A stretch of DNA of 64,000 nt. Source: Sphingomonadaceae bacterium. GTDB taxonomy: Bacteria; Pseudomonadota; Alphaproteobacteria; Sphingomonadales; Sphingomonadaceae. Positions 221 to 61,897 of this stretch are shown in pieces. A program made the translations under genes and the position numbers. The stretch covers positions 26,282 to 90,281 of the forward strand of contig JAFAZF010000028.1 in the NCBI GenBank assembly GCA_019239915.1, read 5' to 3'. The notes under the pieces were generated by a model, which saw nothing but the letters and a program-made list of their open reading frames with translations, did no database searches and had not been told where the DNA came from. The stretch's first letter is position 1. Each line of letters opens with the position of its first letter.

Positions 221-654
221 CGCCCGGTCGATCCAAAGCCGCCGCTGCCGCGCGCGGTGTCGTCGAGCGAATCGGTCTCCGTGAAGGCGGCGTGCGTCAC
301 CACCGCCGGCACGAGCTGCGCGATACGCTCGCCACGCACCACCTCGAACGGCTCGGCGCCGAGATTGGCGAGGATCACCTTCACCTCGCCACGATAGTCG
401 GCGTCGATCGTGCCGGGGGTGTTGAGGCAGGTGATGCCGTGCTTGAGCGCCAGACCCGAGCGCGGGCGCACCTGCACCTCATGGCCCTGGGGGATGGCGA
501 TCGCGAAGCCGGTGGCGACGGCATGGCGGGCCCCCGGCGCAAGCGTCACGCTTTCGGCGGCGACGACGTCGAGCCCCGCGGCGTGCGCGGTGGCGTAGGC
601 GGGCAGCGGCAGCCCCGCGCCATGGGGAAGGCGCTTCAGCCGGATCTCGATCAT
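217..654 (-). CDS. dut: dUTP diphosphatase
   Basis: 145 aa with dUTPase motifs ([26 protein letters not shown]-terminal [10 protein letters not shown]). Confidence 0.96.
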
Positions 655-2006
655 GCGCGCCCGTCTTCCGATGCGCCGGCGAGCGCGGCGGCGACGCGCG
701 CGGCGAGACGGTCGGCGACCGCATCCTTGCCGAGCCGGTCCCAGCTTTCGACGCCGGCGGCGGTGACGATGTGGACGCTGTTCTCCGCGCCGCCCATCAC
801 GTCGCCGGAGACATCGTTGGCGACGATCCAGTCGGCGCGCTTCGCGGCGAGCTTGGCCTGCGCGTTGGCGATGAGGTCGTTGGTTTCGGCGGCGAAGCCG
901 ATCAGCAGCCGCGGCCGCCGGTCGGAGCGGCCGAGGCCAGCGAGGATGTCGGGGTTCTCGACCAGCGCGAGCGGCGCCGGCGGCGCGCCGGCGCGCTTCT
1001 TGAGCTTGGCGGTGGCGGGTTCAGCGCGCCAATCGGCGACGGCGGCGACGAGGATCGCGGCGTCGGCGGGCAGCGCGGCGTCGACCGCGGCGGCCATCTC
1101 GCGCGCCGTCTCGACGTCGATGCGCTCGACCTGCGGCGGCGTCGCCAGCGCCACCGGACCGGCGACGAGCGTGACCCGCGCGCCGAGCCTTGCGAGCGCC
1201 GCGGCGATGGCGAACCCCTGCTTGCCCGACGACCGGTTGGCGAGATAGCGGACCGGATCGATCGGCTCATGCGTCGGGCCGGCGGTGACGAGGACGTGCC
1301 GGCCGACTAGCGCTCCCGCACCTGGCTCGGCTCCGTTCGTCCCGAGGCCTTCGAGGGCCTGCCAAGGCAGGCGCTCAGGATGAACTTCATCCTTCCGAGA
1401 TGGCGTCGAGGGGCGTGAGGCAGACGGAGCGTTCGCGCCACCTGCCTCTACTTCGCTCGGCACGAACGGACGTTTGAAGCGCGCGATCGCGTCGACGATC
1501 GCCTGCGGTTCCAGCAGGCGACCGGGGCCATATTCGCCGCAGGCCATCGGCCCTTCGTCGGGATCGAGCACGGTGACGCCGTCGGCGCGCAGCTGCGCGA
1601 CGTTGCGGCGGGTGGCGGCGTGGCCCCACATGCGGACGTTCATCGCGGGGACGGCGAGCACCGGCTTGTCGGTCGCGAGCAGCAGCGTGGTGGCGAGGTC
1701 GTCAGCGATGCCGGCCGCCATCCTGGCGAGCAGGTCGGCGGTGGCGGGGGCGACGACGACGAGATCGGCTTCGCGGCTCAACTGGATATGGCCCATCTCG
1801 GCCTCGTCCTTGAGATCCCAGAGGCTGGTGTGGACCGGCTGCTCTGACAGCGCCGCGAGCGTCATCGGCGTGACGAACTGGGCGCCGCCCGCGGTGAGCA
1901 CGCAGCGCACCGAGCCGCCCTGCTTGCGCAGCAGCCGGATCAGCTCGCACGCTTTGTAGGCCGCGATGCCGCCGCCGACGATCAGCAGGATGCGCTTGGC
2001 CACCAT
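651..2006 (-). CDS. coaBC: Bifunctional phosphopantothenoylcysteine decarboxylase / phosphopantothenate-cysteine ligase
   Basis: 451 aa: N-terminal CoaC flavoprotein ([25 protein letters not shown]), C-terminal CoaB ([25 protein letters not shown]); repeat-derived linker between the domains. Confidence 0.95.
1333..1469. repeat. Family-A palindromic repeat inside coaBC ORF
   Basis: ccgttcgtcccgag...cttcgctcggcacgaacgg; same ends as intergenic copies; contains internal gcctgccaaggcaggc hairpin. Confidence 0.85.
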
Positions 2007-14436: not shown

Positions 14437-14653
14437 CCGTTCGTGCTGAGCGAAGTCGAAGCACGTGCCACAGATGCATTGCTCCGTTCGGCCTGAGCGC
14501 AGTCGAAGGCCGCGCGATGGCTGCGCTTCGACTACGCTCAGCGCGAACGGCTGTCGCGTTGAGATGACACGTCCGCCGACTTCGATCCCAAGGATCGAAG
14601 CTTACCATGAGCGCCTGCCTTGGCAGGCAGTCGAGGGGCTCAATACGAACGGG
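14437..14653. repeat. Composite family-A repeat array (3 units)
   Basis: Units starting at 14437 and 14484, ending at 14550, plus third unit with nested hairpin gcctgccttggcaggc at about 14612-14627. Confidence 0.85.
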
Positions 14654-19051: not shown

Positions 19052-19226
19052 GCACGGCTCCTGCGGTTCGCAGCATCAACGCATCGATCGCCTGCCTGTT
19101 CAGGCTGGCCCTCGATTTAAGCGCATCGCGGTTTTTGGCGGCATGGGCAGCAACCAACCTTCCCGCAAAGGCGGGAACCCACCGGGTTGACCTAGCCCGC
19201 TATTCGATCGGCCTGAATTGCCTCAG

Positions 19227-19398
19227 CCGTTCGGGCTGAGCCCTTCGACAGTCTGCCAAGGCGGGCGCTCAGGCTGAATTTCGATCCTGCGGATCGAAGT
19301 CGAAGCCCATGCGCCGTCGCTGCCCTTCGACTGGCCCAAAGGGCCAGCCTGTCCTGAGCGCCCGCCCTGCGGGCAGTCGAAGGGCTCAAGGCGAACGG
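19227..19398. repeat. Expanded family-A repeat with nested hairpins
   Basis: ccgttcgggctgagcccttcgacag...ctggcccaaagggccag...gcccgccctgcgggca gtcgaagggctcaaggcgaacgg. Confidence 0.85.
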
Positions 19399-19564
19399 GG
19401 AATGGTGGATCAGTCAGGTCGAAGAGGGCTCTAGCGGTCCGTCGCGGCAGCCGGTTATGATCCCCGGCCTTCGCGGGAATGACGACCACCGTTGCGGCAG
19501 CCACGGTAAAAGGCAATCGCGCGGTCGTCTCGGATCGCCGAGGCAGATGCGCCACAAACACGAA

Positions 19565-23942: not shown

Positions 23943-23954
23943 TCCGCCATCATT

Positions 23955-24049
23955 CGTCATTCCCGCGAAGGCGGGAATCCATAGTGGCTGGACGCGCGTT
24001 CTTGCCCCGCCGGCAGAGAATATGGGTCCCCGCCTTCGCGGGGATGACG
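23955..24049. repeat. Family-B palindromic repeat
   Basis: cgtcattcccgcgaaggcgggaatccatag...tatgggtccccgccttcgcggggatgacg. Confidence 0.9.
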
Positions 24050-24073
24050 AGCGGCTGATAAAGAAGGCAATCC

Positions 24074-61724: not shown

Positions 61725-61800
61725 GCGGCGTTCTCCAACGCTCTGGGCGGCAGACATGCAACCACATTGTTGATGGCGCTACGTCCAGCCGAACGGAATC

Positions 61801-61897
61801 CGTCGTCCCCGCGCAGGCGGGGACCCATATTCTCCGCCGTAGCGACCGTGGCGCGAGGTCAGCGACTATGGATTCCCGCCTTCGCGGGAAGGACGAC
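61801..61897. repeat. Family-B palindromic repeat
   Basis: cgtcgtccccgcgcaggcggggacccatattctccg...ctatggattcccgccttcgcgggaaggacgac. Confidence 0.88.

Follow-up and report, generated by a model that had tools for sequence, protein, structure and literature searches.

Repeats of the window

The window, by which we mean the whole 64-kb stretch of DNA under study, contains short palindromic repeats (REPs) in and around genes that include coaBC and proS (Table 1). One kind, family A, is laid out as CCGTTCG, a variable 5-bp stem, GAGC, a tip, GTCGA and a return stem. Simple copies number 26 in the window, with tips GAA (nine), GCA (seven), CT (five), TT (four) and GTA (one). The host genome, 3.6 Mb in 85 contigs, was surveyed by pattern searches and by reading the stretches around the matches. 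There, GAGCn1-4GTCGA yields 1236 matches against 527 for the reversed-pattern control, from which we estimate some 700 true simple family-A REPs. According to the genome match list many of them form inverted pairs, and the family has the general character of REPINs and BIMEs, with many copies that lie mostly as inverted pairs 30-60 bp apart. Its tag is CCGTTCG, and the GTAG of RAYT-type REPs is absent.

Some copies are composite. In these the GNA tip of the outer REP stem-loop is replaced by a module of about 50-57 nt, hereafter M. Its order, in the orientation of the host, is CCTTCGAC-hp1-GCTCAGG, then a linker of 5 nt (ATAAA or ACAGG), then the hairpin arm2, after which the outer REP continues with its return arm. 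As M stands in the place of the tip, a composite together with its outer stem would make a three-way junction. About 30 M copies, including those with other hp1 sequences, accompany the simple REPs in the host genome. They come in three layouts, with an arm2 of the GATCC type, an arm2 of the GGCCC type, or an arm2 that is itself a simple REP core. The sequences of hp1 and arm2 are nearly free except for pairing.

The original prediction saw small hairpins inserted in family-A repeats at one preferred junction, and the strings that it quoted are all in place in the four composites of Table 1. The pattern CTGAGCN{10,38}GTCGAAG has 39 matches in the genome against 6 in the reversed-pattern control, with a palindromic insert in about half of the 39; once the hairpin is specified, 15 matches are left against none. 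That different hairpins occupy one position is borne out: insert positions are not random, and the hp1 types TGCCTGC..GCAGGC and GCCGCC..GGCGTC are distinct palindromes, not point-mutation expansions of one sequence. The idea of an outer element hosting an inner one at a single site likewise held, as unrelated hosts and full and empty paralogs attest (see below), but the inner element is the larger M, not the hairpin of 14-17 nt. The hairpins lie in M composites, not in simple family-A copies, and 17 of the 18 TRTCCTGAGC...GTCGA cores of the genome carry one. Nor was a standalone hp1 found when the hairpins were sought on their own: 23 of the 31 GCCTGCn2-5GCAGGC palindromes of the genome are within M, some with decayed flanks, and of the eight outside M, the five that were read resemble coding sequence. 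An apparently deeper nesting is seen at L292 (G000:C67:133940-134260), with M in a GCCGCTGAGC..GTCGAAGCGGC stem that is itself in a GTGCTGAGA..TCTCGAAGCAC stem.

One composite belongs to a REP stretch (1311-1472) that is in frame within coaBC, where it corresponds to residues 179-232, flanked by the Pfam domains Flavoprotein (4-175) and DFP (234-414). A composite REP thus adds peptide between both domains of an enzyme of the coenzyme A pathway.

Table 1. Repeats and modules of the window (positions counted from its first nucleotide)
Feature	Position	Strand	Remarks
Composite REP in coaBC	1333-1415	+	Lies in coaBC (open frame 651-2006, minus strand), where a linker joins the two Pfam domains
Simple family-A REPs	14443-14544	.	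Tips GAA / GCA / GTA; comparison set
Composite REP	14577-14652	-	hp1 CCTGCCTTGGCAGG; arm2 hairpin CTTCGATCC..GGATCGAAG; outer stem decayed
MITE-like unit	19192-19434	.	Ends CTAGCCCGCTATTCGATC... / ...GGTCGAAGAGGGCTCTAG; M in both tips of the REP dimer that it holds; paralogous units in the alignment: L005, L016, L023
Composite REP	19227-19308	+	Outer family-A arms around M
Outer family-A REP, 5' arm	19227-19241	+	CCGTTCG tail, GGGCT stem, GAGC
M	19242-19298	+	CCTTCGAC; hp1 19250-19266; GCTCAGG; linker 19274-19279; arm2 TTCGATCC-TGC-GGATCGAA 19280-19298
Outer family-A REP, 3' arm	19299-19308	+	GTCGAAGCCC
Second composite REP of the dimer	19323-19398	-	Outer arms 19384-19398 and 19323-19331, M between
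M of the second composite		-	hp1 GCCCGCCCTGCGGGC 19360-19375; arm2 CTGGCCC-AAA-GGGCCAG 19331-19347
CGTC-tagged REP pair	23952-24050	.	Kind that hosts M in other genomes; tips without M here
CGTC-tagged REP pair	61798-61896		Tips of such REPs carry M in other genomes

Hosts and distribution of the module

When GTDB species were scanned, each represented by one genome, at least 117 stretches matched, from many Sphingomonadales and some other phyla. In the family to which the window belongs, the ATAAA form of M is present in 45 of 401 genomes and 21 of 96 genera, with no match to the reversed-pattern control, and its distribution is patchy, also within the host genus. The outer REPs that have M in their tips belong to at least five unrelated types. 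Among 121 distinct copies that were parsed, 48 are hosted by family A, 43 by CGTC-tagged REPs (34 + 9), seven by a REP of the CATCCTGAGGAGC type, four by GGTGGCAGCGC and two by GGTTCACGC, the remainder being left unassigned by the classifying script; these copies are not all independent, because composites also spread as units. Several hosts, GTCATTCCCGC..GCGGGAATCC among them, have a CGTC tag, a stem of 8-9 bp and a short loop, a form that neither family A nor M shares, and the outer CGTC stems have no sequence relationship to either. In the same M-bearing genomes matching CGTC stems are found with the empty tips GAAG, GCAG and GGAG.

Of 20 genomes of cyanobacteria, Chloroflexi, Nitrospira, Bacteroidetes and others, most contain many simple CCTTCGACn1-6GCTCAGG cores and hardly a match to the control; these genomes were picked because they had already matched, and several are metagenome bins. 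The full three-way layout is seen in one copy from an Eremiobacterota bin (L119). In an array of Phormidium pseudopriestleyi (L108), ten CCTTCGAC units are followed by ten GCTCAGG units; other arrays are unequal. Strict self-recursion was considered for such arrays and dropped as support, since the left and right counts are uncorrelated (rho 0.05 over 46 arrays).

Structure of the composites

As judged from the sequences, complementary changes keep the structure of the outer stem, of hp1 and of arm2. Outer flanks score 3.8 on average for pairing with their own partner, against 0.87 when partners are re-dealt (maximum of 200 rounds, 1.23). For hp1 the mean is 4.7 against 0.98 for shuffled hp1, and for arm2 stems it is 6.3 against 0.96 with shuffled downstream sequence. 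DNA folding predicts the expected three-way junction for three CGTC-hosted copies (z -3.7 to -4.7) and is less clear for a fourth (z -2.0). For the family-A copies of the window the lowest-energy predicted fold is an alternative pairing of M with the host arms, to which its own arms are complementary; the nested structure proposed for these copies rests on covariation. Composites have no Rfam match at the gathering score. A sub-threshold match to BjrC68, a small RNA of Bradyrhizobiaceae (L291:24-90, E 0.017), lies over the end of a CTAGAGC-type unit.

Full and empty forms

The composite dimer of the window belongs to one of five CTAGAGC-ended units that were aligned in the host genome. Neither tip is filled in L005, only the left one in L016, and both in the window copy and L023; in the CTAGAGC-type unit L290 the left tip is filled and the right half lost. 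Flanks are near-identical among paralogous units with zero, one or two filled tips, and the left-tip insert, bounded by GAG and CGNAGTCGAAG, is 54 nt long. The stretch upstream of proS that includes the unit is some 400-500 bp longer in the window than in four congeners that align on both flanks, the remaining congeners aligning on one side only. In Sphingopyxis, a 180-bp stretch at one locus of genome G149 includes a TIR unit that holds M; of 29 orthologs, 25 have just 18-42 bp between the flanks and four have other sequence there. Being absent at orthologous sites, the carrying TIR units move. The terminal inverted repeats and orthologous absence that mark a MITE are found in these units and not in M, which is without TIRs and for which no target duplication was noticed. 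A difference confined to the tip was sought at orthologous sites of two loci, where only the absence of a larger stretch was found. From the paralogous units and the range of hosts we infer that M entered tips.

Candidate enzyme

The host genome has two PF01797 (Y1 transposase) genes, which read as IS200-like TnpA; the surrounding 1.5 kb or so of each contains no family-A REP. No RAYT gene was found in this genome. In the family at large, a PF01797 match occurs in 14 of 45 M-bearing genomes and in 46 of 356 others (Fisher p 0.003, a statistic that ignores shared ancestry), and is absent from 31 of the 45. This association with M is weak, and it could reflect shared ancestry or mobile-element load. 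A RAYT as the driver is not supported, given that none was found in the host genome and that most M-bearing genomes are without a PF01797 match.

Origin of the nested repeats

The reading that we favour, with a probability of about 0.45, takes M for a mobile miniature hairpin. Not being autonomous, M would depend on an enzyme supplied in trans, the likeliest class being HUH/Y1-type single-strand transposases, to get into the GNA tip of a REP that has been extruded as a single-stranded hairpin. From then on it would spread with the REP, being copied along with its host and sometimes with a larger REP-carrying TIR unit. The tip could be a safe harbour for M because a REP can be recognised by its tag and lower stem; loop positions do matter, however, for two TnpAREP other than that of E. 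coli (PMC8266576). We propose more tentatively that M stands for a new class of miniature mobile DNA whose target, the GNA tip of an extruded hairpin, is defined by structure and not by sequence. With such a target, M would be able to colonise unrelated palindromic repeats and to nest in its own kind.

Template switching would need no transposase: a strand stalled at a GNA tip in the course of replication would jump by microhomology to another REP tip in trans, copy a hairpin core and return. The first letters of arm2 are complementary to the remnant of the host tip (CT..AG), as fold-back copying predicts. Furthermore, the first arm of M amounts to a REP core that is inverted and has its tip filled, and the simple form of this core, CCTTCGAC...GCTCAGG, is abundant in many phyla; GC is found on either side of the insertion point in many CGTC hosts, and a tight correlation with an enzyme is absent among the 401 genomes of the family. 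We regard this route as a serious rival, though a less likely one: were switching random, ragged ends and varied donors would be expected, whereas M is a fixed module with a conserved ATAAA or ACAGG linker and two hairpins, found in unrelated hosts and in 21 genera. It is less likely still that the shape is under selection as RNA, the composites being transcribed 3' elements whose junction plays a part in protein binding, termination or the stability of mRNA. Each of the three helices shows compensatory variation, which would be in keeping with such a role, as would two M-bearing REPs on large plasmids of Sphingomonas parapaucimobilis and Sphingobium sp. RAC03 (L367, L368), about 40 bp downstream of a gene and between converging genes. 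However, letters of hp1 and arm2 that are almost free beyond pairing, the lack of an Rfam match at the gathering score, a composite in frame within coaBC and a patchy distribution, even inside a genus, all argue against it.

To be sure, one may also imagine that nothing was ever inserted: the composites would be distinct REP families of long standing, their common core a matter of shared descent, and the simple copies would have lost M. The simple core is indeed far wider spread than the composites and common to many phyla, and the hp1 type tends to match the host type, which points to composites spreading as units. Yet this is the least probable account of all: the sequences of the outer CGTC stems show no relationship to M or to family A, and repeated precise loss of M is less economical, because simple forms are common while composites are patchy.

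Relation to known systems and significance

No description of M was found in the open literature searched. REPs are known as targets of insertion sequences, ISPpu9, ISPpu10, ISPa11, ISPsy8 and ISRm19 being cases in point (PMC1525189). Like these, M would be mobile DNA using a REP as a precise target; they are, however, full insertion sequences, while M is non-coding, about 50-57 nt long, and found in several unrelated REPs. With the REP, BIME and REPIN systems that depend on a RAYT (TnpAREP) the present repeats share a high copy number, head-to-head dimers, imperfect palindromes and short tips; they differ by a family A without GTAG tag, a genome in which no RAYT was found, and an inner module common to several REP types. 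For CGTC-tagged REPs, the relevant sections of Di Nocera et al. (2013; PMC3733652) report no dedicated transposase and describe REP dimers inserted within other palindromes. Several hosts of M, families of this window included, are CGTC-tagged short-tip hairpins such as those sections describe. By contrast, M is a separate module at the tip that does not figure in them, and family A ends with CCGTTCG, not with GTAG or CGTC. As to MITEs, there are M-bearing REP dimers inside TIR units (CTAGAGC or TTAGAGC ends) absent at orthologous sites, whereas M itself is a passenger, without TIRs or visible target duplication. Miniature elements derived from IS200/IS605 are short non-coding DNAs that have a hairpin at each end and probably pass through a single-strand intermediate; M differs from them by its insertion at hairpin tips.

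The nesting of M is real, site-specific and widespread, and its presence at the tips of otherwise unrelated repeats suggests a tiny mobile DNA living inside other tiny mobile DNAs. M bears on the question of how REPs spread without a RAYT: found in the tips of many unrelated REP types, it lends itself to tracing tip cleavage or strand switching and provides a testable substrate. If the proposed entry is true, related cores in other phyla would make the tip-entering habit an old one, and if this entry is directed by structure, it would amount to a new target rule for mobile DNA.
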